A stretch of 20,749 bases of DNA, taken from the IMG/VR virus record IMGVR_UViG_3300033996_001603, positions 1 to 20,749 of that record; one strand, written 5' to 3'. The first letter of the stretch is position 1; every line of letters begins with the position of its first letter. This document shows positions 1-19,986 of this stretch, piece after piece. The stretch comes from a virus. The notes below the pieces were generated by a model. The model saw nothing but the letters and a program-made list of their open reading frames with translations, was not told the origin of the DNA and ran no database searches. The position numbers and the translations under genes were made by a program.

Positions 1-1981
1 TATATAAACTATCACTAGGTACAGAGTTTAATGTATAACCGGTAAAGAAACTTTCATTTACACTATAACCTGATGGATTAACTGAAATTTTTATATCAAA
101 AACACTTTGTAATAAATTGCAACCGGTTTGTCCTACTGTCAAATCTTTAAACCCTTTATTTAACATTTGAACTAACCCAAACTTGGTTTGACTATTTATT
201 GTAAAGTTTTCCCCACCCATAAGATATCTTTGGTAGGAAACATAGAGTTTATCACAATTTATAGTTGTTGACCTTTCTAAAGAACATCCTATATCATCAA
301 CTATTCTTAGAGTATATGTTCCGGCACTTAATCCTTCAACTTGAATTTCTTGAGGATTACCAATAACATTATTAGACCAATAAAACGTAAATGGTGGTGT
401 TCCTGAAGATATTAAAGCATTAATCATCCCATTAGAACCATTTCCACAAGATGTACTATACAAACTAAAATCTAAAGAACTACTTGGATTAACATAAACT
501 TGAGTGGTTTGAACACAACCCGCGGCATCCGTAACGGTTACGGTATGTTGTCCTGAACTAACATTTGAAAATGTAACCGCAGATAATGCGGTATTTGGAA
601 CATTCTGAATTCCATCCAAAGAGTAATTATATGGTGATACTCCACCATTAGTTCTTGTTACCGAGACAATTCCATTGTTTAAATTACAAGTTGTTCCAGT
701 CGTATTTGTTGAGATTGTGTAAGTATCTGTTGCAAATAAAGTAACCTCTTCCATGTAATAACAAGACGAAGAATCTTGAACCGCGACTGAATAAGTCCCT
801 GACGTTAAATTTGGGAATATTTGAACCGTATTATTTCCGCCAATGTTTTTTGTATTACCATTAGGATAAATTAAAGTATATGTGTATGGTGTAACACCTC
901 CAACCACAGATACTTTTATTGACCCGTCAGAACTTGAACAAGTTGACCCACTCGTATCAATAGTGACGGAGACCATTCCTTGAGGAGATATTAATGTGGT
1001 ACCTGCTACAAATGAACACAGTGCCGCATCTGTAACTTGGATAGAATAAAACCCGGGTGATAATCCATTTAAAGTCCAAGATGTCCCATATTGAATTGAT
1101 ACTTCTCCTGTGGACGCAGAATAGTAGAATGGTGCAGTACCTCCTGTAATTTGAATGGTCAATGACCCATCCGCGGCAAAACAACTTGGCGGTACTGCAG
1201 TAAATGTACCTAAACCCACTTGAGGTACATTAACCACATTTACCCCTTTAGTTTGTGAACACCCTAAAGAATCCGTAACAGTTACCGAATAGGCTCCCGA
1301 AGTTAGACCAGTTATCGTAGACCCTGTCGCTCCATTAGACCAAATATAACTATACGGGGGAGACCCAGTGACTCCTGTAACAAAAAGTTTACCTATAGGT
1401 GTTCCTCCACAAGAAGAATTTGGCACATTATATATTCCAAAATTTAATGGGCTAGAATCTTCAATAATAAAATTTTGACTATATCCTGTACAACCTCCAA
1501 TATCAACCACCTTCATATAATATGTTCCGGCACTTAAAGTACCAAAAATAACATCATTGACATTTATATTAGTACTTTGATTCGTGATTTCGTTATCATT
1601 AGAATCATATAAATAAAATTGTGTAGTTGAAAAATTTGAGGATGAGGTTCCTGTAACCGAACCATTATCTAAAGAACAGGTTGTCCCTTGGACTCCAAGA
1701 ATACTAGCACATACTCCTGATGATACAGGTATACTAATATTTAAAGTTTGTTGAACAGGTGCAGTACTATCACTAACGGTGGCTAGGTAATTACCGGAAC
1801 TTAATGAAGTTCTTATTGATGGATACAGAGATGTTATTGTATCTGTCCCCAAACTTGTTGGAGGAGTAGTAAGTAATGTCCATTGGACAATATATGGTTC
1901 ATTACCACCATTAATTGAAAGAGATATTGCACCTGAACCGTTACTTTGACAATCTCCAGTTATTAATAGATTATAATTCAT
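1..1981 (-). CDS. SprB-repeat tail/fibre protein, C-terminus cut off by left window edge
   Basis: An open frame of 660 codons runs from ATG at 1981 to the window edge with no stop, so the 3' end is missing. Residues about 11-566 form seven beta-sandwich-like repeats, the first one weak. Each has a core such as GGTxPYxYxWSNG followed by LxSGTYSVTVTDSxGC, the pattern of the SprB repeat of Bacteroidota adhesins. After residue 566 the sequence changes to a non-repeat module that resembles the C-terminus of the upstream 1000-residue protein. There is no signal peptide: the N-terminus is MNYNLLITGD. That argues for a virion component rather than a secreted host adhesin. The ATG overlaps the upstream TAA by one base (TAATG), so translation is probably coupled. 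A role as tail fibre or receptor-binding protein is inferred from position and repeats. An accessory decoration protein is the alternative. Confidence 0.85.
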   Translation of the reverse strand, partial: MNYNLLITGDCQSNGSGAISLSINGGNEPYIVQWTLLTTPPTSLGTDTITSLYPSIRTSLSSGNYLATVSDSTAPVQQTLNISIPVSSGVCASILGVQGTTCSLDNGSVTGTSSSNFSTTQFYLYDSNDNEITNQSTNINVNDVIFGTLSAGTYYMKVVDIGGCTGYSQNFIIEDSSPLNFGIYNVPNSSCGGTPIGKLFVTGVTGSPPYSYIWSNGATGSTITGLTSGAYSVTVTDSLGCSQTKGVNVVNVPQVGLGTFTAVPPSCFAADGSLTIQITGGTAPFYYSASTGEVSIQYGTSWTLNGLSPGFYSIQVTDAALCSFVAGTTLISPQGMVSVTIDTSGSTCSSSDGSIKVSVVGGVTPYTYTLIYPNGNTKNIGGNNTVQIFPNLTSGTYSVAVQDSSSCYYMEEVTLFATDTYTISTNTTGTTCNLNNGIVSVTRTNGGVSPYNYSLDGIQNVPNTALSAVTFSNVSSGQHTVTVTDAAGCVQTTQVYVNPSSSLDFSLYSTSCGNGSNGMINALISSGTPPFTFYWSNNVIGNPQEIQVEGLSAGTYTLRIVDDIGCSLERSTTINCDKLYVSYQRYLMGGENFTINSQTKFGLVQMLNKGFKDLTVGQTGCNLLQSVFDIKISVNPSGYSVNESFFTGYTLNSVPSDSLY
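284..1951 (-). repeat. Seven tandem SprB-like protein repeats (coding)
   Basis: The repeats are divergent at DNA level but clear in protein. By residue, with window positions, they are: R1 about 11-72 (weak), R2 102-164 (1678-1490), R3 191-241 (1411-1259), R4 267-322 (1183-1016), R5 348-407 (940-761), R6 432-489 (688-515) and R7 512-566 (448-284). R2 to R7 each start at a Cys followed by a D/N-G-S-like turn, and end with a Y-x-V-x-V-x-D strand plus Cys. A 22-27-residue connector separates consecutive repeats from R3 to R7. Confidence 0.8.
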
Positions 1982-4900
1982 TATCGAGCACAATTAATAT
2001 TAATGTTTATTCCTACATAGAGTGAAACTGAACTAATTGTTGTATTATTCAAACAATTTAAATTCGTTATTGTTAATATATTACCACTTACTAAATTGTC
2101 ACTATTAAACGAATAAGAATATCCATAATTTATTAATTGTGGTAAATAATTAAGCAATGCAAATCTCCATTGATTTGGAGTTGGGACATCTAATATACCG
2201 TATCCAGTATAAAAAAGTTCTTTTATTATTTGTTGCCCATCAATAACTAAATCTACATACCATTCAGTTAATACTGAATTTTGGTTACAATCATTTAGGG
2301 TTAAACCTTGTTGTGATAACATATTATTAAGTGTATAACCTAAGATACTACTGAAGTTTGAAACTTTTATATCCTGATTAAACCATGGATAAATGTTAAA
2401 GGTAGCCTCTTCTGAATTACAAGTGTAATCAAAAATACCTGAATTTATATAACATGGATTGACAGGAACTAAAATAAATTCACAACCTCGTTGTCGTCTA
2501 TACGCCAACTTTTGTTTGTGGAAAATAGAATTTTCCAATCTAACTCCCCCATTCCATATTGTAGTTGCAGGAACCATTTGTTCCACCAACTTTGTCCAAT
2601 ATGGTCCAATTCCATTTACATAATCAATTAACTTTTGATAAGTATATTGGTTATTTGGTAATCCAACTGTTTGTTCCGATTCGATATATTTCCAAAAGAT
2701 TGATTGGAGTGTTGGGTATCCTCCGGTTTTTCCATCTGAAATATATTGTCTATTTCTTGTGTTAATCATATTCTCCCAAAATGTTTGAGAAAATTCAAAG
2801 AATGTTTTTTTCTTTGGTTCAGGATTAATGTATGTCCAATCGACTCCTCCAGGTACCGGATATCCCACCGTTAATCCCGATTCAGGTATTGGATAATCAT
2901 ATTGTCTTGATTGGTCCCAAACATCATATACGAGACCTTGCGCGGGATTTAAGAAAATATCAACATTTTTAACATTCAACACTAATTTTTCATTATCCAC
3001 AAAATAATAAGCGTTATAATCTCCTTGAGTCGATATTCTTATTTTATCGTCGCTAGATAACCAAGATTTATTATTATCAACAACTTTTTGTAATTTGAAA
3101 CCTTCACTCATATATGGAAAGTTTCGGTATCGGTTAAGATAAGTCTGACCGTAAGTGAACGGTGTTAGTTGAGTTTGGATATTAAAATTTTGTCCTGTGT
3201 ATACATTTCCGGTTATTTGGACAGCATCAGGACTTCTATGTTGTGGTGTTACTTCATACCAACCTGCACCAATTTGAAAAAAGAATGTTTCCGTATTTTG
3301 AGGTGCTTTTGGATACCCTTCAGTATCAATAGGGTAATCAGTTAAATTTACATTAACATCTTGGTATATCTCACTCGATGTAAATGCGGTATATAAATTT
3401 CCTTGAATCTTGTATGTGTCATTTGGTAAATAACTAGGAACATTATTAACATAAGTTCCACCTGATATAGCAGCCCATTGAGTATCGAATTGTTCAAGAT
3501 TAATTTTTTGGTCAGCCAAATAGATGTGCTCATTGTATTCGATTAATGAATCAGGTGCTCCGATTAATCTTAATAAAAACTCAATTGACCTTCTTGTTCC
3601 TTTTGATTTAAAAAGATAGGAAGCATTGAGAATTAAATTACGATAATAAGCATAATTTAACTCTGTTGGAGTCAGGGCTCTTGCGTATCCAGGATATGTT
3701 GGAGTTGAGGTATTACCAAAAACTGAACTTAAAAAATCTTCATTTGTTATTGGAGAAAAGTTTGATGACCACCCTAATGTTCTTGACAAATTCACCAACA
3801 ATTCTGAAGGGATGTCATTTGAAGGGTTATAGTTAACCGAATTCATATAAGCTAATCCGTCAATGAATTGTTTTACTTGGTCAAAACTTCTACCATAGAT
3901 TTGAAATATTTTTTCAACTTTTTGACCTAAAGTATCAAATTCTTTTAAAGAATCTGTAACTAAAAATCTTGAGATTAAGTTTGTTTTGAAAGAATCTAAA
4001 TTAATCGCAATTGCCTGAATTTCTTCAAGATAGTTGTCGAATAGAAATGAACTAATATCTAAATTCCAAGGTCCTTTTTTCGGCCAAGTAACTTGTTTGT
4101 ATTCAGTATATGTTTGACCATATTCATTTTGTTGTGGGACTTGGAATACTGCAGTATATTCAGGTCTTACTAATCTATTAACCAAGAATTTTTCAACTTC
4201 GTCAAACGATTCTTGGAAAGTTTTATCAACGATATAGTCGTTGGGTCTAACTTGGAACTCATCATTAATTGTTGTTGCGGTGGTTCCGAATGGTGCCCCT
4301 GAAGCGTAAAGTTGAATGTATCCTAATGATAATGTTTCTGATGGAACAAACGCCAATATATTAAAAATATTATCATTAATACTAACACAATAATCCAAGT
4401 AAGTATTATATAGATTTCTATATGGTGACACACTAATCTCTCTGATGTTTAAATTAGTTGTAGCATTTATAGAATAATCAATATCAAAAGGGTTACTAAT
4501 TCTATCTACATTTACTTTAAAATAAGTTTCATCAGCTTCACTATCATACACAATATCATAAGCGGTATTACCTGTAACATAATCATCATTAGTGAACATC
4601 ACATCTAATGATGCCGGAAAGTAATTAATAATTTTTGTTATCGACACACTAAATCTTTTAGATAGTGAACCATACATTGAAAAATTAAGAACTTGGGAAA
4701 TATCGTAATTAGGATAAACTCTAAATTGTGTTGCAAGTATTAGTCTACTTTGTTCCAAACTGTCTACACCCAACATGTCTAACGATATTGGTTCGGAGAA
4801 AGCTCCGACATTGAAGGTTCTGTTCACCTTTTCCGTTACACCCGTAGTAAACTCAAAATTACCTTGCGTAAGTCCTCCCCCTTCAACGGTTTGTAATCCT

Positions 4901-4983
4901 ACAATGTTGTCAGAAAAAGTCCCCGCACCATTACCAGGACGCGGCGGATAAAAGTATTTAGTATTTTTTATCTCTACCGCCAT
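1981..4983 (-). CDS. Large baseplate/tail protein with tail-protein-I-like segment (1000 aa)
   Basis: This is a complete 1000-residue frame. It begins at an ATG that shares one base with the upstream TAA (TAATG) and ends in another TAATG with the downstream SprB-repeat gene. Residues about 440-490 contain YYRNLILNASYLFKSKGTRR followed by SIEFLLRLIGAPDSLIEYNE, a helical pattern like P2 tail protein I and its wedge relatives, where a long helix precedes a K-G-T-R-x-x-E/I-x-x-L-x-x-L/I-G turn. A second compact motif lies at about 798-834 (VEQMVPATTIW, ENSIFHKQKLAYRRQRGC). The last 146 residues resemble the C-terminal part of the next gene's product. The length is close to T4 gp7 (1032 aa), which is also a wedge protein, but I cannot show homology. 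A baseplate structural role is likely and the precise counterpart is uncertain. No signal peptide or membrane segment is visible. Confidence 0.82.
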   Translation of the reverse strand: MAVEIKNTKYFYPPRPGNGAGTFSDNIVGLQTVEGGGLTQGNFEFTTGVTEKVNRTFNVGAFSEPISLDMLGVDSLEQSRLILATQFRVYPNYDISQVLNFSMYGSLSKRFSVSITKIINYFPASLDVMFTNDDYVTGNTAYDIVYDSEADETYFKVNVDRISNPFDIDYSINATTNLNIREISVSPYRNLYNTYLDYCVSINDNIFNILAFVPSETLSLGYIQLYASGAPFGTTATTINDEFQVRPNDYIVDKTFQESFDEVEKFLVNRLVRPEYTAVFQVPQQNEYGQTYTEYKQVTWPKKGPWNLDISSFLFDNYLEEIQAIAINLDSFKTNLISRFLVTDSLKEFDTLGQKVEKIFQIYGRSFDQVKQFIDGLAYMNSVNYNPSNDIPSELLVNLSRTLGWSSNFSPITNEDFLSSVFGNTSTPTYPGYARALTPTELNYAYYRNLILNASYLFKSKGTRRSIEFLLRLIGAPDSLIEYNEHIYLADQKINLEQFDTQWAAISGGTYVNNVPSYLPNDTYKIQGNLYTAFTSSEIYQDVNVNLTDYPIDTEGYPKAPQNTETFFFQIGAGWYEVTPQHRSPDAVQITGNVYTGQNFNIQTQLTPFTYGQTYLNRYRNFPYMSEGFKLQKVVDNNKSWLSSDDKIRISTQGDYNAYYFVDNEKLVLNVKNVDIFLNPAQGLVYDVWDQSRQYDYPIPESGLTVGYPVPGGVDWTYINPEPKKKTFFEFSQTFWENMINTRNRQYISDGKTGGYPTLQSIFWKYIESEQTVGLPNNQYTYQKLIDYVNGIGPYWTKLVEQMVPATTIWNGGVRLENSIFHKQKLAYRRQRGCEFILVPVNPCYINSGIFDYTCNSEEATFNIYPWFNQDIKVSNFSSILGYTLNNMLSQQGLTLNDCNQNSVLTEWYVDLVIDGQQIIKELFYTGYGILDVPTPNQWRFALLNYLPQLINYGYSYSFNSDNLVSGNILTITNLNCLNNTTISSVSLYVGINININCAR
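1984..2421 (-). other. C-terminal module shared with the downstream SprB-repeat protein
   Basis: This is residues 855-1000 of the 1000-residue protein. The stretch FYTGYGILDVPTPNQW (about 924-939) lines up with FFTGYTLNSVPSDSLY near the cut end of the next protein. Upstream of it, a MLxxxx..LTxxxxxC spacing and a hydrophobic beta strand (WYVDLVID versus VFDIKIS) also correspond. I aligned these by eye. The downstream copy occupies roughly positions 2-283 and is incomplete. Confidence 0.55.
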
Positions 4984-5891
4984 TAACTCGTTATTGTTGT
5001 GAAGTTTTTACTAAAATCAATATTATTTCCTCTACTTTGTCTAACCTCATAAAGAAGAGCGTTAAATTGGTCTCTAATTTCGTATAGATTGTATTGTCTG
5101 TAAATATTATTTTCAGAATCGTAAATTGTGTAGATACCATCATCAATAGATTTAGTCTGATTACCATAAAGAGCAATTGCAAGAGATGATATGTCATATT
5201 CAACCATTTCAACCTCTAATGTAACCGGATTGAAAAATGTATTTGTGATTATAATATTTTGGTCAGGTTGTCCAATAAAAGGTGTTGCATTTGGTTTATT
5301 TGTCGGAGAAGATGATGGTGATAGTGTTAAAAAAATTAAATTTGAACTACCATCAACATATCTATATCTTATTGACTTTTGAGTTGTATTTACTTCATTA
5401 GATACAACCGGCTCACAAAAGAAAGATGAAGTCACAACTCTAAAGAAATTTGGTATTTTTGAGCCATCTGGATTCAAATATTCAATTCTAAATCCAACCA
5501 AACCTTGTGGAACAAATTTATTCTGATATTGAACCGGTACATTTGTAATGTCAATTACAATACCTTTAACATTTGGTAATGCACTTAACACACCACAATC
5601 TGTTATTACGGTTCTAATTTGAGCAGGTCTTAGATATAAAGTATAAATTCCAAGAGCGTTAAATTGTTCGGCAGGTAATGTTAAATTATATAACCCCCCC
5701 AAAATTTCAACATTCGCATTCCCACCTGTTTCTGTATTATTAAAATATGGTTTTAGTAATGTTTGAGCATCAAGTTCTGTTAGGATGAAATTATCCGTAA
5801 CATCCCTTGATGGTGTATAGTTCATTATGATTTGAACATCTTCAGGACTTACGTCTGAAGGTCTTATCGTGCCGTAGCTTCCAATTGCCAT
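4983..5891 (-). CDS. Putative virion structural protein (302 aa)
   Basis: This is a complete 302-residue frame with ATG at 5891, 24 bases after the preceding gene. That gap holds a TATTTATA promoter-like element. The TAA overlaps the next ATG by one base. I do not recognise the family. Residues 75-115 form a hydrophobic strand-rich core (QFNALGIYTLYLRPAQI, LPNVKGIVIDI). Residues 125-185 look like a beta domain (GFRIEYLNPDG, FFRVVTSSFF). Residues 189-208 are a Ser/Pro/Asn-rich linker. The C-terminal 40 residues (YDSENNIYRQYNLYEIRDQF...) look helical and could assemble with neighbours. There is no signal peptide or catalytic motif. The position between the PKD protein and the 1000-residue wedge-like protein supports a baseplate or fibre-connector role, by inference only. 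Confidence 0.75.
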   Translation of the reverse strand: MAIGSYGTIRPSDVSPEDVQIIMNYTPSRDVTDNFILTELDAQTLLKPYFNNTETGGNANVEILGGLYNLTLPAEQFNALGIYTLYLRPAQIRTVITDCGVLSALPNVKGIVIDITNVPVQYQNKFVPQGLVGFRIEYLNPDGSKIPNFFRVVTSSFFCEPVVSNEVNTTQKSIRYRYVDGSSNLIFLTLSPSSSPTNKPNATPFIGQPDQNIIITNTFFNPVTLEVEMVEYDISSLAIALYGNQTKSIDDGIYTIYDSENNIYRQYNLYEIRDQFNALLYEVRQSRGNNIDFSKNFTTITS

Positions 5892-5901
5892 TTTGTCTTT
5901 T

Positions 5902-5915
5902 TATTTATAAATAGT
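5902..5915 (-). promoter_or_regulatory. TATTTATA promoter-like element before the 302-residue gene
   Basis: The coding strand reads ACTATTTATAAATA, 11 bases upstream of the ATG at 5891, inside a gap of only 24 bases. Its TATTTATAAATA core (5902-5913) is self-complementary, so it cannot be oriented by sequence alone. It matches the elements at 15085-15092 and 17505-17512. Confidence 0.4.
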
Positions 5916-7025
5916 TTAGTTCTTTTTTTCAACATTAAAAAATCCATACCCATAGTTTATCATATCACCTAAATTATCAACTTCTCCTAATCTTTGAATT
6001 CTTTCATATGCAGAATTCTTTCCGCGTTCAATAAAAATATCGGATTGTATTTGTGCCTGAGCAACAACTTTTAATAAAACTTCATCTTTAGTAATAGGTA
6101 CCGCAGTCAAATTATTATCAGTAAATCCCGAAGATTGTTCAAAAAATATTGTTGTTCCATCGATATAATCAAAGTAATTAACAGAGTTTATAGTATAGGC
6201 CGTATATATTGGATTCATGTCCGTAATTATACCCCATATTTGATTATTTTTAATTACAGGTGTGTTAACTTCATATTTTACCGACCCATATAACGCCAAA
6301 TCAGTAATACTTGATTTTGTTATTCCGGAAACCGTATATGGTATGGTCACGTAATTAATTGATGTTTGAGGTTGAACTTCATTAACCGAGTCACCCGAAA
6401 ATATATAATCGTAACTAACAGGGGTCTGAGACCAGTTACCACCAGCAGGTGTAAAAAACGCTTCACCGTTTGGATTGGTTGGGACAACATTAGTATAAGG
6501 TGTTGTAATCGTTTTACTTACTCTTGTAATCCCCCAAGGGTTTGTCTGTTCTAATGTAATTTGATAAGTTTTATTTGCTGTAGGATATGTGTGACTTAGG
6601 GAATTTGGTGTATATGTTGTTATTGTCTGTTTTGAACTACCATCCCCCCAATCTATTTTATATGAAGACAACTCCAAAAATTTTTGAAATTCACTTGAAG
6701 TATTGTAGATATTAACCGTATATGGGGTTTGGGTTGTAGAAGAAAATATAAAATTCGTAACAACATCTTTTTGTAATACCGCACCATCAAATGGACTATA
6801 ATATCCAACATCTATTGCGGTTTGTCTAATTAGTATTGGAACCGTTAACCCTGTTAATAATGAAGACCCGTTTGGCCCGGAACTAAGAACTTGGGTCATT
6901 GCAGAGTAAACACCGACAGTTTGTCCGGTAGAATTACCACTTACATTGTTTCCTTGTAAATTTACTAAAAATAAATCACCTTTTATTGTCTCAGGTGAAA
7001 CTATTATTTTATAAAAATCTTCCAT
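5916..7025 (-). CDS. PKD-domain virion protein (369 aa)
   Basis: This is a complete 369-residue frame whose ATG overlaps the upstream TAA by one base. Residues about 90-176 form a PKD (polycystic-kidney-disease-like) Ig fold. It has the diagnostic turn YKIDWGDGSS (W126-G129), the SHTYPTANKTYQITLEQ strand (H145-Y147) and a terminal VSKTITTP strand. PKD domains are common binding or spacer modules of extracellular proteins, and in phage they occur in tail and fibre proteins. The C-terminal 40 residues (SDIFIERGKNSAYERIQRLG, then EVDNLGDMINYGYGFFNV) are hydrophilic and look like a conserved docking tail. There is no signal peptide. The flanks (residues 1-89 and 180-320) are beta-rich and unassigned. 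The PKD call is confident. The role as a tail or baseplate decoration is inferred from the operon. Confidence 0.82.
   Translation of the reverse strand: MEDFYKIIVSPETIKGDLFLVNLQGNNVSGNSTGQTVGVYSAMTQVLSSGPNGSSLLTGLTVPILIRQTAIDVGYYSPFDGAVLQKDVVTNFIFSSTTQTPYTVNIYNTSSEFQKFLELSSYKIDWGDGSSKQTITTYTPNSLSHTYPTANKTYQITLEQTNPWGITRVSKTITTPYTNVVPTNPNGEAFFTPAGGNWSQTPVSYDYIFSGDSVNEVQPQTSINYVTIPYTVSGITKSSITDLALYGSVKYEVNTPVIKNNQIWGIITDMNPIYTAYTINSVNYFDYIDGTTIFFEQSSGFTDNNLTAVPITKDEVLLKVVAQAQIQSDIFIERGKNSAYERIQRLGEVDNLGDMINYGYGFFNVEKKN
6498..6758 (-). other. PKD domain coding segment
   Basis: Codons 90-176 of the 369-residue protein encode one PKD-like Ig domain, with the WGDG turn and the HTY strand about 16 residues later, as in typical PKD domains. 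Confidence 0.8.
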
Positions 7026-7867
7026 TATTGAGGATTAACATATTCATACCATTTTATGGGTATAGTCGCACCCGCCCTGTTATTTAAGTTACTATATATA
7101 TTCTGATATTTGTTTATATTAAAAACTTGATAGTTTTGTTTTTCATAATCTAAGTCAACTCTATAATAAAAATAATTTTTATAATCAAAAACGTATTTAT
7201 CTCCCTGTATTGATGATTGAGGCATGTTCATCATTTTTGTGAAAAATCCTCGTCTAGCATCATAAAATTTTGCGGTCATATAGAATGTTGATATGTCCAA
7301 GAAATTTCTTTTCTTTAACCAATAGATAAAAAACCCTTCTTTATCTCCGACATAATCCAAAACAAAATAAGGTCTTTTAATTTTAACGGGAGTCCTATCC
7401 AGCAAAGCATCCTGAGTTAACCCTTGTTGTGTTGGTATTATTATTGTAATATAGTTCGTTTGTCGTTTTTCATCAACACTATCGTATAAATCTAACTTGA
7501 AAAAAGAATTTGAGAAATTATTTGTGTAATAATATATTTCTTGAGTGGTGAATCCTTCGTAAAGGTATGTACCGCTCCAACTTAATGGAGTATTTAAAGA
7601 CCCTCCTGACCAAAAATTAAATTCATACTGAATGTCAGTAAACTCAAAAGGTGTATTACTTAACGGGTCTTGAATGGTTATTGGAGCATGAGCGAATCTA
7701 TCAACTTCAAAATCACCATAATCGCCAGTAACTTGTTTAATGATTTCAGCTTCATATTCATCAATACTTTGGTCTAACCCAAGATAATCCCAAGTTAATT
7801 GAATAGGTATAACCAATTCTTTATTTGTAAATCCGTCTTTCCTTATTTGTATTTTATTCACATCCAT
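7025..7867 (-). CDS. Putative virion structural protein (280 aa)
   Basis: This is a complete 280-residue frame. ATG at 7867 lies 14 bases inside the end of the upstream gene, and its TAA forms TAATG with the next start. The family is not recognised. The protein is rich in Tyr, Phe and Asn. The N-terminal part (MDVNKIQIRKDGFTNKELVI) looks like a start strand. The most patterned part is residues 155-245: TPVKIKRPYFVLDYVGDKEG, GFFIYWLKKRNFLDISTFYM, YDARRGFFTKMMN and NYFYYRVDLDYE, alternating aromatic and charged residues as in beta-sheets. No signal peptide, membrane segment or active-site motif is visible. Coupling to its neighbours suggests the product is incorporated stoichiometrically with them in the baseplate or proximal fibres. 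Confidence 0.75.
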   Translation of the reverse strand: MDVNKIQIRKDGFTNKELVIPIQLTWDYLGLDQSIDEYEAEIIKQVTGDYGDFEVDRFAHAPITIQDPLSNTPFEFTDIQYEFNFWSGGSLNTPLSWSGTYLYEGFTTQEIYYYTNNFSNSFFKLDLYDSVDEKRQTNYITIIIPTQQGLTQDALLDRTPVKIKRPYFVLDYVGDKEGFFIYWLKKRNFLDISTFYMTAKFYDARRGFFTKMMNMPQSSIQGDKYVFDYKNYFYYRVDLDYEKQNYQVFNINKYQNIYSNLNNRAGATIPIKWYEYVNPQ

Positions 7868-9545
7868 CTATCAAAGGTTTTATTGGGAAATCAACTCCAG
7901 TTATTACGGAGTTATAGTTTATTCCTTCAGGTATCAATCTAAATTGAACATCCTTAAATGGGTATTGAGCAAAATTTAAAAAAGGATAATCAACACCTCT
8001 ACCTAAATTATCATTAAACCCATAAGTGTACAAATCTCTCCATCTAAATTGTTGGTCTGAATTGGAGAAATAGGCATAGTTTGGTATTCCTTCAATAAAT
8101 TCTAAATCACCTGTTTCAATATAATCCGAAAACACTCTAATAGTCATTGGTGTATGTGGTTGGTAATAGAACCCTGGTGAATTAGTATCACCCGGAATGT
8201 CAGACGATTGAAATACACTCTGGTTATATTTAATTTTTTGATAATACGGAGAAATAACCCTTTCCAATTGTTCATAGTCGTTCCACTCACAAAAATCTCC
8301 ATCTATGGTATCTCCCGAAATTAAATTTTGATTATAATAAAATGTTTTATTACTTAATGAATAACTTGATGTTGGAATCTTAGTATTTGATTCCGGATTA
8401 GTGTTGTCCCACCAAGAATTTGGTGAATTAGTTAAATTAAATTTCCAACCTTGTTTTAACGCAATGTTACCATTTGTCGGGTAATTAAAATATCCCGTAT
8501 AACCTTTATTTATTATGGTTAAAAATAACTCACTAACAGGTCTTTTCTGATTATCCAATACATTTGCAAGGTCTAAGTCACGTTTAATTGTGATGTTATA
8601 TGAATTACTACTTGTTTTTTGAGAAATTCTAGTAATTTTATTTGGTGTAATTGAACTTAATTCAAGTTGTCTTTCCTCATTAAATACATTTTTTTCAAAC
8701 GCATTTTTTGTCATAACACAATCCTCAAGATTTGTTAAAATCTTATGTTCTCTCACATAATATTTTGATTTTGTTTCCAAAATATTTTCAGGATTTATAA
8801 CTCTCTTGAATGTACCTGTTTTTTGATTTGAGAATGTTCCTCCGCGGTAACCAACATTATAAATATTGAAAATATATTCATCACTATCCAATAAACCATT
8901 TCCTAATGAATAAACTTGGAATAATTTTATTTTGTCATAATCAAATGACAACTCAACATATTCTCCAACATTTAATCCGTGTGGTGCAATACATTGGAAT
9001 CCAATAACACTATTTCCATTTTGGGTTGTATTAAAGATTGAGAACGGGATTCCTTCGGAAGCAGTCCATGTTAAACTAGTGTTATTTAATTCATAAAATA
9101 ATTTCTTATTATAATTGTTTTGGTGAGCATAACTAACATAATAAGTCCAATTGTAAGTATAAGCACTTTTTGCTTGATATCTAATATGTTGGTCACTAAC
9201 ATCAGGTCTATAAAAATCAAACTCATAATATTGTGGGTACCCAAACCAAACATTATTAAAAGAAGATTGTTCGGGTTGAACATAATATAAGGTATTTCTA
9301 AATGGAATATATTCAGTAGTTCCTGTATAAGTGTTGGCGTACAAATAATTTAATTTAAATGTAGGTCTAAATATTGAACAGGTCTGTCTTTCATTGTCAA
9401 ATATTTGAGCCAAACTAATACTCTGACTTCTATCATATTCAGTAATCTGTTGACTTTGTTGTTCCAAAGACAATGAAATTTCTTGGTCAACAAATGGTGC
9501 CGACTTAAATTGTAAACTACTTGGAATAATTGTATACTTATTCAT
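7854..9545 (-). CDS. Putative virion structural protein (563 aa)
   Basis: I place the start at ATG 9545 (MNKYTIIPSS), although the frame can be extended one codon to a TTG at 9548. The ATG overlaps the upstream TAA by 8 bases. The protein is 563 residues, beta-rich and full of Tyr and Asn. Recognisable patterns are APHGLNVGEYVELSF (about 188-202), a turn-plus-strand motif often seen in phage structural proteins; RPVSELFLTIINKGYTGYF (about 335-353); and WRDLYTYGFNDNLGRGVDYP followed by FLNFAQYPFKDVQFRLIPEG (about 502-541), which reads like a conserved C-terminal signature. I cannot name the family with certainty. There is no signal peptide or hydrophobic span, so it is presumably a soluble tail or baseplate component. 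Its place just after the 1843-residue protein and before the 280-residue protein fits an outer baseplate or fibre-attachment layer. Confidence 0.78.
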   Translation of the reverse strand: MNKYTIIPSSLQFKSAPFVDQEISLSLEQQSQQITEYDRSQSISLAQIFDNERQTCSIFRPTFKLNYLYANTYTGTTEYIPFRNTLYYVQPEQSSFNNVWFGYPQYYEFDFYRPDVSDQHIRYQAKSAYTYNWTYYVSYAHQNNYNKKLFYELNNTSLTWTASEGIPFSIFNTTQNGNSVIGFQCIAPHGLNVGEYVELSFDYDKIKLFQVYSLGNGLLDSDEYIFNIYNVGYRGGTFSNQKTGTFKRVINPENILETKSKYYVREHKILTNLEDCVMTKNAFEKNVFNEERQLELSSITPNKITRISQKTSSNSYNITIKRDLDLANVLDNQKRPVSELFLTIINKGYTGYFNYPTNGNIALKQGWKFNLTNSPNSWWDNTNPESNTKIPTSSYSLSNKTFYYNQNLISGDTIDGDFCEWNDYEQLERVISPYYQKIKYNQSVFQSSDIPGDTNSPGFYYQPHTPMTIRVFSDYIETGDLEFIEGIPNYAYFSNSDQQFRWRDLYTYGFNDNLGRGVDYPFLNFAQYPFKDVQFRLIPEGINYNSVITGVDFPIKPLIDGCE

Positions 9546-12500
9546 CAACCGAATATTTTGTTTTAAATTTATCTAATGCGGTTTCACCTTGGATTATACC
9601 AAAATAAAAATGATTAGGAGCTCCAACTAAAAATTTATCCGGTATCGCTCCAACATAGTTGTTTGAGGGTGATGTTGCAGTACTGAACGCATAATCCCCA
9701 TTCGAATTAACCGCAAAGATATACCCTCGTTTATATATATCACTAAGTCCCTCCACACCCTTACTCATAAAATAACTTGGATTATTAGGTGTATCCGGTT
9801 CTCTTCTATTCAAAGATTGGTATTTTTTACTAAAAATACCTTCACTATTTGCACCTCCGTTTGTTTTCCAATTATTTTTTTCAGTTCCAAATATTGTATT
9901 TGTTGATGCTAAATCCCACTGATAAAATGGGACAACTTGTGATTTTATCCCATATTCATATGTGTTTACATTAGAACTATATGGTGACCTAAAATTAATA
10001 ATTCCCGGACTTAAAAAATCTTTATTTTGTAAATCAATTGTTGTTGATGAAAAGAAAACCCCCATAGTTGGTCCGTCAAGTACCACCACAGAACCACTTT
10101 CAGGACTATAATATTGTGGTGAGAATGGTATAACACCATACTCAGAATTAATTGACATAGCTTGAGCTAAATCGCCATCAATTCTAAGCTCTTTTCTTGA
10201 GAATAAGATATTAAGTGAACTATTTAAACCGGATAAAATTTTAGTTAAAAACCCACTATCCGTAATTCTACTAATAACAAATAAATTAACTAAATCTGAA
10301 GTATCTGAATACGTTGTAGGTGATAAACTTTTCATAATATAACCTTTAGCCGCCGGGTCGAATAATACCTCACCATAAAAATCATCTTTATAACCTAAAT
10401 TAACTATTGTTGTTGGGAATAGTAAGTTATCTTTATTTACAGGAGCAAATCCTCTAGCAGGTGAACCAACAAATCTTGAATTGCTAATCGAATATGGAGA
10501 ACTCCTATAATAGAAATTATTTGTTTTATCGTCAAAATAAACAATTTCTTCAGCAAATCTAGGTCTTAATGGTTGATTATTAGTGTCGAAATAAGTGTCA
10601 ATTTGCATCGGGAACATATATAATGACCCATTCACCCAATTATTAACAAATGATTGAGATAAAACCCCCCTACATAATCCATAATAAAATCTAAATCTAT
10701 ATCCCCACTCTCCAAATGTATCTAAATCTTTTGTTAAATCTAATAATGGTCTATTCATCATCACATAACACCCGTTTTCAACATTATCATTTTGTAATGC
10801 TCCAGGTTTTACTCTAAATTTGGAACCATTACCTTCATAATAATCAAGTCCAACCATTTTTTCACAATCATTCATAGTTTCAAAAACGGTTGCTTGTAAT
10901 ACTTGACCTTGAATATCCGCCGTAACTTGTTCTGCACCTGTTGAAAAGCTAGGCGCTCCAAAACTTAAACCAACCTCAGTAGAATAAACCGCAAATGACA
11001 AATTTTGTTGCAATAATCCAACACTACCATTTAAAAACGCAAAATCTGTTGCTCTTTTCTGAACATCAAATCCGTCAGAAGATGGTAAACGGTCAGTTCT
11101 CATTACCATTTGAGTTGGAGAACTAATTATGAGCCCTGAGTTAGGCCCTGTGGTTCCTGTAAATTCAGGTAATAGTAATGGACTAAAATATAAACTAAAT
11201 GGTTGACCTTCAGTTGCCTTATATCCGGAAAAGAGGTCGGTTGCACCACCTCTTCTATAATCCGAAATGAATAATTCCAAAGGTCCTCTAAACATATAGG
11301 CCGCTCCGGATAAGTCTTCATCCAAACGATATCTAGTACTTGGATTTAAAGGGGTATTCCCCCCATAACTAACAGACGCAACATTATCTGTAAATGTTGT
11401 GGTTTGAACCCCAAAAAGGTTTTGGGATGGTGGGGTTACTGCAACCCCTCTCATTAACGATGGAACCCCAACAGAAATAGGATAGACCCCATAGTTTCTA
11501 GTTCTCGTTATTTGAATATCTTCACTAGAAGTAGGTCCCTTTGGTCCTCGTGCAGTAAAAGTACTTGTGTGAAATCCATTTGCGGGAAAAACTTGGTTTA
11601 AAACTGAAGTGATAGTTAGTCGAAGTGGTGGTGTAGTTGTCCTCATATATCGACTATCTAAAGCGCCGTAATACCCTACATTACTCGTAGTATAGGATGA
11701 AAATGCAAGACCTGGTGTTGTTGAAGCATTAGGTATTATATTATTTGGAATACCCGGTGTATAAAAATAAGAACCTGAAAATATTTCACTAACATCTTTA
11801 TGATTTTGGACTGAAATTGTAGAATTAGAAGGTAATGGTTGGATTGGTATATTCATTCTTGTCATTCCTGTAATTACAACCGCATTTTCACTTGAGTGAC
11901 CCAATATTCTTCCAATACCATAGCTATTTGGTAATTTTGGTGAGTATGGGTCAACCCCTCTTTGTAGTATTAAAACCACTTGTTCGTCAAATCCATCTAA
12001 TATTGATGTTGGGAAGCTATAACTAGGACTATTTGGTGGAAAGTAATTATGTCTTACATTTCCTGCGGAAAAGGTACCTCCTCTCCCATCGGTTATTCCT
12101 CCAACATAACCATAATTTTCAAGAACTCCAGGGGTATTGTTGGACAATAAAAACCCTTTATTATCTGCAATTAAGTCATTCCAAAAACCCTTTGTTGGGT
12201 CAGGATTTCCTGCATTGTCAAGGACTTGACCGGGTAATGAATAAATTGTTTTGCCGGTACCAGGTTGAATCTTTGTGTTAATGGTGATTGCGGTTAATAC
12301 TTGGTAATACTCAAGGTCTGAAGGATAAATATATCTTTTACAAGCCGGCCCATAAGTAATTCCACTTATTTCAGCGGTTCCTCCTAATGTTGTGATGTCT
12401 ATACCGTTCTCATTGGTTATTGTTTTAGTTCCAATTGTTGTTGCGGTTACTGTTACTTTATTGTTAGCACAACTAAAATAAGTTGTAGTTCCCGTGGCCA

Positions 12501-15069
12501 CCACATCAAATGTTATTGATAAAAAACAAGTTGAATTACCCGATGGGATAATATATGGAACAATGGTTGGAGCGCCTGTTTGTGTTGTTGCATAAGGCAC
12601 ATTTGCGGTAAACCCGGTATTCTTAATAATACCATTAATACCGTTTAATTTATTAGCCCCAATTGATGTCGTTCCTGTCCATAAAAAATTAACATCTTTA
12701 GTTTTTAATGGGTCAATAAAAGTTAATAAAGTACCAGGTTCAAGAGCTTGTACCGCCAAAACCGTTAATGTGTTATCGTAATGTGTGGTACCGCTTGGTG
12801 ATGTTAAGTTACCCCCATTACTAGGATAATTAAACCTAACACTTATTTTATTAACATTATCAAAATATTTTTTTCTTGTATTATACTTATTAATTCTTTC
12901 TCCCGGAGGTAATGTAATACCCGCAGCAATTAGTTTAGTTCCCTCATTATTATAACTTCCTTGAATTTTCTCAGGAAAAGTAAATGAATCTGAAAAGGTT
13001 GATTTATATATCGTGGGTGTTTTCCTACTAAATCTTCCCGAAATTGCTTGTGAAATTGTAACCGCACTTAATTGTGAACTATCTTCGTTATCGGTATTAG
13101 GGTTAAAAAAACCAACCTCAAGATTATCAATATATAACCCCCCATTAGATAATTGTGTTAATAATCCTGATGGTGGCGCACTCTCTTGGTCTCCTCCTCC
13201 CGGAGCAGTAGTTTCAGGGTCACACTCACAAGATTGACAATCAGGATATGTCATCATAGGTAATTTAAGTCGACCAAATGTATAACTTACAATATCTCTA
13301 AAATTAATTGTTAAGAAAATTGCGCTGACACTATATAAAATTGCAAGTAAGGCGTGTGGGGCAATCATTGCAAGCGTCGCACCAAATGCCGCGGAACCCG
13401 CAATTGCCGCAATAACTAAAATTCCTTGTTGAACCGCAGCTTTAACTAACAACCCAATAAAAAATAATAAGATTGGTGTGGCAAAATTATTCCAAAGAAA
13501 AGCTAAAAAATGAAACACTATTAATAAAGGGATTCCAAGTATTTGTATTATTTGAAGAATTATTGCAAAAATAAAGTAAATTAAATCAAAATTTTTAAAA
13601 CCATCATTAACAGGGAATTTATTAATTGTGTTTGCACAATCCGGACTGTCAATTTCTTTTATACCAATGAAATTTCCTCTTCCACCATTTTTAAATTCAT
13701 CAATTAATCCTGCAATTGTGTAAACTTTGTTAAATTGGAATTCATAAAAAGTATCCTCACAATTAATAATTTCATTTAATCTATTATTTTTTTGATTTCC
13801 GGGAAGAAACCCATTAGTATATCCACTCCACGCCAATCCAAAATAATATGAACTTTGTTGTTTTACTACATCACTCACCGCACCTAAGCCCCATCCATAT
13901 TCTTTAATATTTGGAACTAAATAGTATGGTCTCCTCACCTGTTCAGTTAAACCAGGTGATTGTTGCCATTTTATCTTAAACCTATATTTTGCTTTAGTTG
14001 GTATACCAATTGTTGGGTCATTAGATAAAACTTTTTCACCAAATTCATTGGTAATGAAATAATCCAAGTTCATAGGTAATTCAGTTAACCAAACTCCATT
14101 CCCATCGATAATATTTCCGGATTGTTCTAACTGATGTTGTTCTAACACAGGATTACCTTCATTATCTTGGTAAATTGTTTGTCTAATCGCCAAAATTTGT
14201 CCGGGTCCCGCAACTAATGCACAAAGATTACCCATATCATCCGCAGGTTTTGCGTTTGGTCTAATTCTATATGTGTCAGCAGTAGAATAAATTGACCCCA
14301 TGAATACCGATGTTGGTTGGATGTCGACATTTGCATCATCTCTCAAATCAAAATCAACTCGGTTAATTGCGATAGTACATAATTCAGGGTCTCCCCATAA
14401 TGGAGATACTTCTAAATTTTTAACAAGATTAATAATTTGAGGTAAAGAATTTAAATCATTTGATGTTCTAAATCTTCCTCCGGCAACTTGGGATTCGGTT
14501 GCTAATCCCATTCTAATTAAATCTTGAGGTGTTAAAGAAAATTCTCCAATATCGGATAAGTCAACATCCATAACTATAGTCCGTTCTCCTTGTGGGACTC
14601 CCATTATCATATAGTCACCACTTTCATTAGTTTTTACACTAAATTTGTAATATTTGTCATAAATTTCAACTGCGGTACCACCCGTCAAAACATCTAATCT
14701 TGATGGTAATGTCCCTGTTGCAGCATGAGTTGAATATGATTTTTCATACGGAAGTAAGTTATATCTATAACCATCTTCATTTTTATCACTTGGTGATTTA
14801 TATGGATATATACTTGAAATTATAGGATTTGATTCGTCTACCGAATCTATTGGGATAAAAATTGAAACTCTAGCATTAGGTATTCCGAATCCATTATTTG
14901 CAGTTACTCTACCTACAACTACCCCATATTCGGCACAACTTTTTGTATAGATGTCTTCTTGTTGAAGTTTTAAAGATAAAATCTCTAAAAATTCAAACTC
15001 TTGGTCTAGTTGTACGTTAATCGATTTATTAACCCCTAATTCAGTTCTTATTCTATATGATTGACCCAT
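9538..15069 (-). CDS. Giant tail/baseplate protein with membrane-like segment (1843 aa)
   Basis: I choose ATG 15069 (MGQSYRIRTELG). One further codon upstream, at 15072, is TTG and less likely. Residues about 45-175 resemble a carboxypeptidase-regulatory/SpaA-like beta domain: VVGRVTANNGFGIPNARVSI, a roughly 65-residue insertion, then YKFSVKTNESGDYMIMGVPQG. Residues 492-591 are strongly hydrophobic, enough for three to five membrane helices (FDLIYFIFAIILQIIQILG, LLIVFHFLAFLW, ATPILLFFIGLLV, an Ala/Gly-rich helix, ALLAILYSVSAIFLTI). A Cys cluster (DCQSCECDPE) and a Pro/Gly/Ser linker follow. The remaining 1200 residues are beta-rich with repeated loops, ending in FYFGIIQGETALDKFKTKYS. The gene follows gp6 after a 91-base gap with a promoter-like motif, at the place where a wedge or central hub gene would be expected. 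Its function is unknown. A baseplate component that inserts into a membrane at infection is my inference. Confidence 0.82.
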   Translation of the reverse strand: MGQSYRIRTELGVNKSINVQLDQEFEFLEILSLKLQQEDIYTKSCAEYGVVVGRVTANNGFGIPNARVSIFIPIDSVDESNPIISSIYPYKSPSDKNEDGYRYNLLPYEKSYSTHAATGTLPSRLDVLTGGTAVEIYDKYYKFSVKTNESGDYMIMGVPQGERTIVMDVDLSDIGEFSLTPQDLIRMGLATESQVAGGRFRTSNDLNSLPQIINLVKNLEVSPLWGDPELCTIAINRVDFDLRDDANVDIQPTSVFMGSIYSTADTYRIRPNAKPADDMGNLCALVAGPGQILAIRQTIYQDNEGNPVLEQHQLEQSGNIIDGNGVWLTELPMNLDYFITNEFGEKVLSNDPTIGIPTKAKYRFKIKWQQSPGLTEQVRRPYYLVPNIKEYGWGLGAVSDVVKQQSSYYFGLAWSGYTNGFLPGNQKNNRLNEIINCEDTFYEFQFNKVYTIAGLIDEFKNGGRGNFIGIKEIDSPDCANTINKFPVNDGFKNFDLIYFIFAIILQIIQILGIPLLIVFHFLAFLWNNFATPILLFFIGLLVKAAVQQGILVIAAIAGSAAFGATLAMIAPHALLAILYSVSAIFLTINFRDIVSYTFGRLKLPMMTYPDCQSCECDPETTAPGGGDQESAPPSGLLTQLSNGGLYIDNLEVGFFNPNTDNEDSSQLSAVTISQAISGRFSRKTPTIYKSTFSDSFTFPEKIQGSYNNEGTKLIAAGITLPPGERINKYNTRKKYFDNVNKISVRFNYPSNGGNLTSPSGTTHYDNTLTVLAVQALEPGTLLTFIDPLKTKDVNFLWTGTTSIGANKLNGINGIIKNTGFTANVPYATTQTGAPTIVPYIIPSGNSTCFLSITFDVVATGTTTYFSCANNKVTVTATTIGTKTITNENGIDITTLGGTAEISGITYGPACKRYIYPSDLEYYQVLTAITINTKIQPGTGKTIYSLPGQVLDNAGNPDPTKGFWNDLIADNKGFLLSNNTPGVLENYGYVGGITDGRGGTFSAGNVRHNYFPPNSPSYSFPTSILDGFDEQVVLILQRGVDPYSPKLPNSYGIGRILGHSSENAVVITGMTRMNIPIQPLPSNSTISVQNHKDVSEIFSGSYFYTPGIPNNIIPNASTTPGLAFSSYTTSNVGYYGALDSRYMRTTTPPLRLTITSVLNQVFPANGFHTSTFTARGPKGPTSSEDIQITRTRNYGVYPISVGVPSLMRGVAVTPPSQNLFGVQTTTFTDNVASVSYGGNTPLNPSTRYRLDEDLSGAAYMFRGPLELFISDYRRGGATDLFSGYKATEGQPFSLYFSPLLLPEFTGTTGPNSGLIISSPTQMVMRTDRLPSSDGFDVQKRATDFAFLNGSVGLLQQNLSFAVYSTEVGLSFGAPSFSTGAEQVTADIQGQVLQATVFETMNDCEKMVGLDYYEGNGSKFRVKPGALQNDNVENGCYVMMNRPLLDLTKDLDTFGEWGYRFRFYYGLCRGVLSQSFVNNWVNGSLYMFPMQIDTYFDTNNQPLRPRFAEEIVYFDDKTNNFYYRSSPYSISNSRFVGSPARGFAPVNKDNLLFPTTIVNLGYKDDFYGEVLFDPAAKGYIMKSLSPTTYSDTSDLVNLFVISRITDSGFLTKILSGLNSSLNILFSRKELRIDGDLAQAMSINSEYGVIPFSPQYYSPESGSVVVLDGPTMGVFFSSTTIDLQNKDFLSPGIINFRSPYSSNVNTYEYGIKSQVVPFYQWDLASTNTIFGTEKNNWKTNGGANSEGIFSKKYQSLNRREPDTPNNPSYFMSKGVEGLSDIYKRGYIFAVNSNGDYAFSTATSPSNNYVGAIPDKFLVGAPNHFYFGIIQGETALDKFKTKYSVDE
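13297..13596 (-). other. Multi-helix hydrophobic (membrane-like) segment within the 1843-residue protein
   Basis: Codons 492-591 encode about 100 residues that are nearly free of charge. Exceptions include one Lys in GLLVKAAVQQG and one His in each of two helices. Charged or polar flanks (NDGFKNFD before, NFRDIVSYTFGR after) bracket it. An Ala/Gly-rich helix (VIAAIAGSAAFGATLAM) resembles pore- or fusion-type helices. Hydropathy was judged by eye. Confidence 0.8.
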
Positions 15070-15160
15070 CAAGTTACTTTAATTTATAAATAGTTTATGA
15101 GAGATTTTTAAAACGCTCACACCACTAAATAATAAACTAAAGAAAAATAAAGTGAACTTT
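15070..15160 (-). promoter_or_regulatory. Intergenic gap with TATTTATA promoter-like element before the 1843-residue gene
   Basis: This is the largest gap in the tail operon (91 bases). On the coding strand it carries AAACTATTTATAAATT (core at 15085-15092), about 16 bases before the ATG. The same core occurs before gp25 and before the 302-residue gene. I see no convincing hairpin terminator for the gp6 gene here, only a short AAAGTTCACTTT near-palindrome with too small a loop. The promoter call is inference from position and recurrence. Confidence 0.45.
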
Positions 15161-16999
15161 TTATGAAAAAGTAACTGATTGGAAATTTTTAACCGAAATT
15201 CTAATATCCTTATTCGGATATCTAACTTGATAAACTTGTGAAGGTTGTGCAAAAATTGTATCATCAACAGGTTCAATTAATCTTGTCGCTTCGTCCCTAT
15301 AAGTCATTGAAGTTTCGGCTGAAGAGTATTGCCCTCCAACCTCATTAAATACATCCATACTTGCAACCGTCAATACCCCATTAGTATTTTGAACTAAACT
15401 TCTAAGTTCAGATAAATAAACATTCTGCCCTAATTGTCTTGTTTGTGCATTAAAATATGCAGATATTTTATCAACAACACTTGAAATTACTTGTCCTGAA
15501 TTTTGAGCCGAATCTAACACTATTGAGACATCCAAACTTAAATCAATAACTTCAGCGCTAAAGATTGAAATATAATCATTCATCATTCTATAGTTTGATA
15601 AATAATTTGCAATATTTTGTCTCAAAGTATTTGAAACAATGTTTGTTAACTTACCTGAAGTGTCATATGATAATATTTGAATTAAAATTTTATTATCATT
15701 TTCTGTAATTGATACTTTAGCCGGTGCTCCGAATTGAGCCGGCATATTTCGAATTAATGATTCATAATCTTGAACGGTTACCGCTCTTTTTTGTGCTGAG
15801 AAGTTAAATGAAACATAATTTCTAATTTCTTCCAATGATGGAATACCTGCCCCTCCAACCGCTGCGGTTACATTGACACATCTCAATGAGTTAACAACAG
15901 ATGAATTGGTTGTTTCTGATGGACCATTAACAAAGAACGATACAGTTCCAATTTGATTGATAACATTTGTTCCCAAGTTAGTTGCCAATCCCCCTCCAAC
16001 TCTATACTGAATAAATAATGTCGAATTTGGAGTTAAAGTTGACCCCAATGAAAAGTTATTTGAATATTTTTGTAATTCTAATGTAGTCCCTAAAGTTGTA
16101 AATTGATTTAATTGGTCTTGAGCAGTATTAGTTCCTCCTCCAAATGTCATTTTTTTAAATCCTTCCGGTGTATATTCAGTAATAAATCTATTTTGGGTTT
16201 GAATATATCTACCAACTTTAATACCCGGTTGGTCAGATACTTTTGTCGGGTCTTCAACAAATACCCTATCTTCAGCCAATGCGTCAACCTCATACCATCT
16301 ATTATCCAAACCTAAAAATTCTGCAACTGTAGGAGTATTGGTATAGCTTGTTCCATTCTTCAATAACACACTTGTAATTCCTAAAACATTTTTTTCAGGT
16401 AAAAATAATTCAAAGAAAGGTTTAACATCATTCGCACCAATAACCTTCTTGAAAACTTTAGTAATACCATTCACAACAATTTCTCTCTTTGTTATTGTGT
16501 AATTTATTAAAATATTATTAGCATTGAAGTTTGGAATCTTTAAACGATTTGGGAATCCTTGAGCATTATATGGTGACGCAAAATCAATATCATAAACATT
16601 TTCAAATACAACACCCGCACCAACAACTTGAGACCCTCGAGCCAATGTTCCAAGATATCTCTCATCCTCTTTATCCCCAAAAGCAGGAACTGTGATTGAG
16701 AAGTCTACCAATGAAACAGATGGTCTTTGTCCCGGTAATTTTAACCCGTAGGTTCTTGCTATATTATAAATTGACGACCTTTGTTGAGCATATTGTAGAA
16801 CCGTCTCTTGAATACTTCGGTCAATATTATAATGTAGATTATCTGCAACCGCAGCATTTAAATCAAGAAATACCGAAAATACCGAAGCGTCGTTAAAGTC
16901 TTGGATTAATTCAGGGTAATATGTTCTAGTATAATTTAAAAGTTCAGTTCTAATCGACTGATAATCTCTACTAGCGTATGATATTCTGTTGTTTGCCAT
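15161..16999 (-). CDS. gp6: Baseplate wedge protein, T4 gp6-like (baseplate J family)
   Basis: This is a complete 612-residue frame, close to the 660 of T4 gp6. The N-terminus (RISYASRDYQSIRTELLNYT, then PELIQDFNDASVFSVFLDLN and DRSIQETVLQYAQQRSSIYN) is the typical start of gp6/baseplate-J-like proteins, with the conserved Arg-Asp-Tyr and the long helices. The C-terminal third contains AQKRAVTVQDYESLIRNMPA followed by QFGAPAKV, then LRQNIANYLSNYRMMNDYIS and a VIDLSLDVSIVL strand, again diagnostic. In T4, gp6 dimers form the ring that ties six wedges together and, with gp25 and gp53, links the baseplate to sheath contraction. It starts 5 bases after the gp25 stop, so the two are translated from one message. 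Stop is TAA, followed by a 91-base gap. Family assignment is strong. Confidence 0.93.
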   Translation of the reverse strand: MANNRISYASRDYQSIRTELLNYTRTYYPELIQDFNDASVFSVFLDLNAAVADNLHYNIDRSIQETVLQYAQQRSSIYNIARTYGLKLPGQRPSVSLVDFSITVPAFGDKEDERYLGTLARGSQVVGAGVVFENVYDIDFASPYNAQGFPNRLKIPNFNANNILINYTITKREIVVNGITKVFKKVIGANDVKPFFELFLPEKNVLGITSVLLKNGTSYTNTPTVAEFLGLDNRWYEVDALAEDRVFVEDPTKVSDQPGIKVGRYIQTQNRFITEYTPEGFKKMTFGGGTNTAQDQLNQFTTLGTTLELQKYSNNFSLGSTLTPNSTLFIQYRVGGGLATNLGTNVINQIGTVSFFVNGPSETTNSSVVNSLRCVNVTAAVGGAGIPSLEEIRNYVSFNFSAQKRAVTVQDYESLIRNMPAQFGAPAKVSITENDNKILIQILSYDTSGKLTNIVSNTLRQNIANYLSNYRMMNDYISIFSAEVIDLSLDVSIVLDSAQNSGQVISSVVDKISAYFNAQTRQLGQNVYLSELRSLVQNTNGVLTVASMDVFNEVGGQYSSAETSMTYRDEATRLIEPVDDTIFAQPSQVYQVRYPNKDIRISVKNFQSVTFS

Positions 17000-17004
17000 C
17001 TTAT

Positions 17005-17475
17005 TTAAATATTAATAATCACAAAATCACTTTGACCAAAAGTAGAACCATTGGTTGAGTAATCTATCCTTATTTTTGCAGTATATTCTGAAGTTCCTTT
17101 TCCCGGAAATCGATATACTGACGATTCACTTGTTCCCACAAAATTTTGACCTGTTGCAATATCAACTTCTTCTTGTGGGTCGGCCGGTGTTATACTTAAA
17201 CTATTAACCAATAAATTTGGCATAAAGTTTTCAATCGCATCTCTTATATCAGATTCAATAGCATTAAATGTTAATCCATCAAATGGTTCAAAAAGAAATT
17301 CATATAATCTTGTTCCAAATTCAGGTAGAAAATATCTCGAACCCTTTCTAGTTAACAATAGATGAATTAAATCAGCTTTAATTTCTTCTGATTGTAATTC
17401 TGTTAATTGTAAGTAGTCTCCTCTTAGAGAATCTCTAAACGGAAAATTAATACCATATGTAACACCATTAGCCAT
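17005..17475 (-). CDS. gp25: Baseplate wedge protein, T4 gp25-like (GPW/gp25 family)
   Basis: This is a complete 156-residue frame, slightly longer than T4 gp25 (132 aa). The core FPFRDSLRGDYLQLTELQSE, then IKADLIHLLLTRKGSRYFLP, EFGTRLYEFLFEPFDGLTF and DIRDAIENFMPNL matches the GPW/gp25 lysozyme-like family, including the P-E/P-x-G-x-x-L-x-x-x-L-F-E-P pattern. The extra length is a C-terminal insertion around residues 100-130 (VDIATGQNFVGTSESSVY). In contractile tails this small protein sits at the start of the sheath and transmits the trigger from baseplate to sheath. It is not expected to be an active lysozyme. It opens the tail operon, after the terminator and two promoter-like elements, and is followed 5 bases later by gp6, the same pairing seen in many contractile systems. 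Confidence 0.93.
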   Translation of the reverse strand: MANGVTYGINFPFRDSLRGDYLQLTELQSEEIKADLIHLLLTRKGSRYFLPEFGTRLYEFLFEPFDGLTFNAIESDIRDAIENFMPNLLVNSLSITPADPQEEVDIATGQNFVGTSESSVYRFPGKGTSEYTAKIRIDYSTNGSTFGQSDFVIINI

Positions 17476-19974: not shown

Positions 19975-19986
19975 AATTTATATGGT

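Follow-up and report, generated by a model that had tools for sequence, protein, structure and literature searches.

The SprB-repeat protein encoded at the end of the viral contig IMGVR_UViG_3300033996_001603 is probably a conserved tail adhesin or fibre stem of a large contractile-tailed Bacteroidota phage, equipped with exchangeable receptor-binding tips. Seven Ig-like repeats of the SprB type would make up the stem, the domain that follows them probably acts as a joint, similar to the joint at the end of the upstream tail protein, and the far end would consist of a P/T-rich linker with an exchangeable tip, or of the next coupled small protein in that role. The demonstrated part of this model comes from the repeats, the synteny, the age of the repeats, a phage-only domain, the exchange of tips, the downstream fibre genes and the absence of secretion signals. 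We infer that the protein is present in the virion, that the domain after the repeats serves for docking or as a joint, and that the tip contacts the receptor. The protein would belong to what looks like the receptor-binding apparatus of large phages that form a widespread group and have no close relative in culture.

The window, i.e. the whole stretch of DNA analysed, is the entire IMG/VR record of 20,749 bases, a fragment, and carries every long gene on its minus strand. Six large unnamed genes lie between the baseplate genes and the SprB-repeat gene, which is the last:
17554-20748, same strand as the baseplate genes and directly upstream of them: genes for ribonucleotide reductase (the large and apparently the small subunit)
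17005-17475, minus strand: gp25-like baseplate wedge protein (phrog_261, E 2.9e-19)
15161-16999, minus strand: gp6-like baseplate wedge protein (phrog_219, E 2.2e-23)
9538-15072, minus strand: 1844-aa tail-operon protein with no confident family match
4983-9548, minus strand: four genes of the tail operon (302, 369, 280 and 564 aa), conserved but functionally unassigned, present in 167 of 167 related phage loci (a redundant count)
1981-4983, minus strand: 1000-aa tail-operon protein, coupled to and upstream of the SprB-repeat gene (TAATG overlap), always preceding the SprB core
1984-2460, minus strand: C-terminal domain of the 1000-aa protein, which looks paralogous to the domain after the SprB repeats
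2-1981, minus strand: SprB-repeat tail protein, 660 aa seen, its 3' end cut by the contig end

The SprB-repeat ORF starts with the ATG at 1981-1979, the first base of which is shared with the stop codon of the upstream gene (1983-1981), and leaves the contig at base 2. The preliminary description of this DNA had presented a protein without a signal sequence, translationally coupled to a baseplate gene. The coupling is confirmed by the TAATG overlap, and no signal peptide was recognised by inspection of the N-terminus (MNYNLLITGDCQ...), which has the same character throughout the family. The term 'baseplate gene' for the coupled partner held in part: it is supported by the position downstream of gp25- and gp6-type genes and by distant matches of the 1000-aa protein to the equivalent gene of Immutovirus and of phage Mel-JY01, but the protein has no family match of its own. 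Its identification as P2 gpI, suspected from gene order and a motif, was not supported in Pfam or PHROGs.

The repeats were recognised by Pfam family SprB (PF13573) with an E value of 1.3e-21 and 76.3 bits, against a cut-off of 28, four stretches being significant individually, and the relatives score 71-99 bits. A six-frame scan gave five SprB matches at 368-1429 of the window and none in 14 control genomes, and seven repeats were in register in an alignment with 27 relatives. Both the count of seven and the SprB type, as first proposed, were thereby upheld, the type by a profile match that goes beyond a generic Ig-like fold; PHROGs contained no match to the protein. The seven-repeat region spans about 1981-254, slightly more than the 284-1951 given earlier:
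1733-1981, minus strand: repeat 1, the most divergent (alignment position; own clade in the repeat tree)
1454-1732, minus strand: repeat 2 (alignment; own clade)
1220-1453, minus strand: repeat 3 (six-frame scan, alignment, own clade)
977-1219, minus strand: repeat 4, the best Pfam SprB match (Pfam, six-frame scan, alignment, own clade)
722-976, minus strand: repeat 5 (six-frame scan, alignment, own clade)
476-721, minus strand: repeat 6 (six-frame scan, alignment, own clade)
254-475, minus strand: repeat 7 (six-frame scan, alignment, own clade)
2-253, minus strand: first part of the phage-only domain that follows the repeats (cut here, about 140 aa in relatives), absent from 49/49 cellular loci

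The AlphaFold model consists of all-beta Ig-like repeats with pLDDT mostly 70-89, the confidence for the whole chain being low (pTM 0.36). The top PDB matches in Foldseek were fragments of the grappling-hook protein of Aureispira (E 1.3e-17, 16-18 % identity), and the sequence search of the PDB returned only marginal Ig-like matches, to phage whisker and decoration proteins. The VIA-align list contained almost exclusively leucine-rich proteins, the tip dominating the comparison, so that the repeats were not probed by it. Grappling hook protein A (PDB 9flp, 9fly, 9flw) is likewise a chain of Ig-like repeats, but it is a bacterial adhesin of more than 5000 residues and its global superposition is poor (TM 0.1-0.2), so the likeness is one of repeat type and not of assembly. 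In most repeats (window 254-1981) a pair of cysteines is found 50-59 residues apart, as in a secreted relative encoded by LR756502 (see below); these pairs could possibly form disulfides in the assembled tail.

When viral contigs were searched with the upstream gene, ignoring the repeats, 80 loci were obtained, and the SprB core was found directly downstream of that gene in all 77 other contigs that were long enough (a redundant count), as expected of the tail-operon phage protein first described. Some contigs represent the same phage sampled repeatedly, and merging those at least 95 % identical left 47 sequences, a set which also takes in loci from a second search and the window. The profile search gave at least 567 relatives. 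The core has a near-constant length of about 711 aa, contigs with the SprB-type tail operon reach 326 kb, and each of seven long contigs tested has a contractile tail sheath gene, which shares its strand with the SprB gene. Terminase_6C, the only terminase family searched, had no match on 7 contigs. That a host gene was misassembled onto a phage contig, as the cut ORF at the contig end and the frequency of cellular SprB proteins in Bacteroidota might suggest, has a practically negligible probability, and was rejected: the junction is internal to the contig, the two genes overlap there by one base, and the same arrangement is seen in dozens of independent contigs of up to 326 kb.

The SprB repeats are absent from Immutovirus and Mel-JY01, which are the nearest cultured relatives by their baseplate genes, so the repeats are dispensable in the wider tail type. 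The gp6, gp25 and 1000-aa relatives of Microcystis phage Mel-JY01 (L223, PP395634.1) stand at about the same distance as the ones in Immutovirus of Flavobacterium; as the listed host of Mel-JY01 is cyanobacterial, either this kind of tail is found in phages of more than one phylum, or the host listing is worth checking.

The age of the repeats was addressed with a tree in which 135 cellular repeats were combined with 91 repeats from 13 phages. Each of the seven repeat positions formed its own clade across the 13 phages (support 0.955-1.0), which means that the repeat order was fixed before these phages diverged and was not refreshed from hosts. The largest all-phage clade contained 26 of the 91 repeats with a support of 0.1, and does not separate a single from a multiple origin of the phage repeats. 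Matches in 49 cellular loci cover mainly the repeats, with at most about 35 % identity over long stretches, and the domain after the repeats and the tested tail-operon genes were absent from all 49. The suggestion that the fibre had been captured recently from a host adhesin was thus not borne out, since at least 13 diverse phages have orthologous repeats and no cellular match exceeds 35 %, and recent transfer from host SprB was rejected on the same two observations. As judged from these sequences, the SprB-repeat stem is an old inherited part of the tail and not a freshly captured host gene; the same repeat would serve cell adhesins and the tails of the phages of those cells through old rather than recent transfer.

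The repeats had also been taken as a clue to the host, and this proved useful, 48 of the 49 cellular loci being labelled Bacteroidota or subgroups. SprB exceeded the cut-off in 19 of 99 sampled genomes of Flavobacterium's phylum, often with tens of copies, and in 1 of 59 genomes of a contrast phylum. The closest annotated phage reductases are those of Cellulophaga and Tenacibaculum phages, and a gp6 relative with 27 % identity is found in Flavobacterium phage immuto. The host of the window phage is therefore likely to belong to Bacteroidota, an assignment which is well supported and to which the repeats themselves point.

Tandem PF13573 modules are shared with SprB, the gliding adhesin of Flavobacterium johnsoniae, and with other SprB-repeat surface proteins of Bacteroidota. 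Unlike these adhesins, proteins of the window type have neither a signal peptide nor a T9SS sorting domain, are 700-1131 aa in full instead of thousands, and always occur in a phage tail operon with the phage-only domain after the repeats. The common module, together with the proposal that the phage receptors of Flavobacterium are likely part of the gliding machinery (PMC7345892), would fit an adhesin mimic that attaches to the moving SprB layer or to the ligands of that layer, the phage then being transported over the cell by gliding. Such mimicry is very unlikely here, as the likeness to SprB does not go beyond a widely shared repeat (no more than about 35 % identity), this repeat occurs generally in surface proteins of Bacteroidota, often with many copies in one genome, and the part likely to make contact is the variable tip behind the repeats.

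The full gene was recovered from the 99 % identical locus L086 on a 74.8-kb contig, where it codes for 1131 aa: the seven repeats come first, then a domain of some 140 aa, and the protein ends in a leucine-rich tip (PF13855, E 1.1e-16). Since tips are exchanged between members, the window phage probably has a leucine-rich tip too, though this is not certain. The check for a T9SS sorting domain suggested earlier was negative for the L086 protein, as it was at the C-terminus of all six full genes scanned, in which weak T9SS-domain hits below the cut-off fall inside the repeats; the scan detected positives in cellular relatives and in one phage protein. An adhesin secreted by the host T9SS and exposed on the infected cell, where it might for instance prevent superinfection, has a precedent in the phage-encoded T9SS cargo reported in Cryophage (PMC7468147) and in the 642-kb genome LR756502, which encodes a protein bearing a T9SS type B domain as well as a signal peptide. 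For the window protein, T9SS cargo was rejected and display of this kind is highly improbable, given the lack of a signal peptide and of a sorting domain in the six full genes, whereas most complete cellular relatives do end in such a domain (by inspection, three being checked by search). The LR756502.1 protein (L224:10828-15840, from an uncultured phage) has 1670 aa with many SprB-like repeats; inspection shows a signal peptide, and the type B sorting domain for the T9SS (TIGR04131) scores 50.1 bits against 35. It is apparently a phage-encoded adhesin secreted by the host, the opposite arrangement to that of the window protein.

In some of the sequences read, the core is followed by a linker, which is often P/T-rich, and by a tip of leucine-rich, propeller-like or other type, but most lack such an extension. 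The cores of L087 and L088 are 86.7 % identical and their tips have no detectable similarity, those of L087 and L089 are 86 % identical with tips 97 % identical over 149 aa, and those of L015 and L016 are 99.7 % identical with tips at 80 %. By these comparisons the tips change faster than, or independently of, the cores. A tip of the L088 type also ends the fused second-gene protein of L053, a neighbouring tail protein (37 % identity, E 4e-30). Retroelement (DGR) diversification of the tips was considered too, and no reverse transcriptase (RVT_1) was found on 10 long but partial contigs. The leucine-rich tips of L086 (10365-11250) and L090 are built of near-identical 23-residue units whose copy number varies between related phages, which suggests that these units expand and contract.

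The SprB-repeat gene sits between baseplate and fibre genes. Downstream of it come a small coupled protein (about 100 aa), then a protein made of linker and tip, and then collagen-like giants. These downstream proteins match tail-fibre families, with scores inflated by low complexity; the collagen-like giant of L054 has a C-terminal Peptidase_S74 chaperone (7e-17). In its position after gp25- and gp6-type genes, its exchangeable tips and the downstream fibres with an S74 chaperone the protein resembles phage tail fibres and tail proteins decorated with Ig-like domains, from which it differs by a stem of a Bacteroidota-type repeat and by the lack of a PHROG match. As far as gene content goes, the constant core, exchanged tips and downstream fibres are the genetic pattern of receptor-binding tail parts. 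Weak general stickiness has been proposed for Ig-like domains of other phages, and the SprB-repeat protein could be a purely structural piece of the baseplate or tail, an Ig-like spacer of that kind, with recognition left to the downstream collagen-like fibres. This is unlikely: in most relatives the SprB-repeat protein does end at 711 aa and bears no tip, and classical fibre genes and a chaperone do follow, but some members bear large exchangeable tips on this very protein, in the way that receptor-binding parts evolve. Read as a tail adhesin, the exchanged tips on a constant stem would offer a natural set for studying host recognition in Bacteroidota phages.

Tests at the sub-domain level indicate that the domain after the repeats is probably paralogous to the C-terminus of the upstream protein. 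The two were aligned by hhalign with a score of 32.4, whereas none of 40 column permutations scored above 19.9 and the reversed profile scored 11.4, and the HMM of the domain matched the expected place in two upstream proteins in hmmsearch (E 1.8e-4 and 0.07). Models of both show the same order of helices and strands, the model of the upstream protein having a mean pLDDT of 35 and being usable in its C-terminal part only. Comparison of the whole profiles of the two proteins gave a probability of only 5 %, and direct BLAST between the two window proteins gave nothing significant. The upstream protein, the domain that follows the repeats and most of the tips are without a name in the family libraries. 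An extended form of the tail-adhesin model, in which the upstream protein and the stem both end in the same joint, segments dock serially as a plug-in chain, linker-tip cassettes swap at two or more positions (SprB core or next gene), and the host-adhesin module possibly lets the phage enter and ride the host adhesin layer, is unlikely as a whole.

No description of SprB repeats in phages was found in the open papers searched, the single one that contains both words being unrelated, and SprB repeats on viral proteins are already present in databases by annotation. The best viral match of the window protein (34 % over 726 columns, E 1.4e-57) is A0A6J5LD72, named 'SprB repeat', of an uncultured Caudovirales phage in BFVD; with 714 aa it has about the size of the core, it is known from a predicted structure and an automatic name only, and it probably represents a deeper branch of the same family. 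Two of these phages' long contigs additionally carry another group of proteins that combine P/T linkers with SprB-like modules, at a distance from the main tail operon (L226:1505-4189 and L227:1889-4378), and a third contig, G002, has a weak match in a frame of 829 aa.
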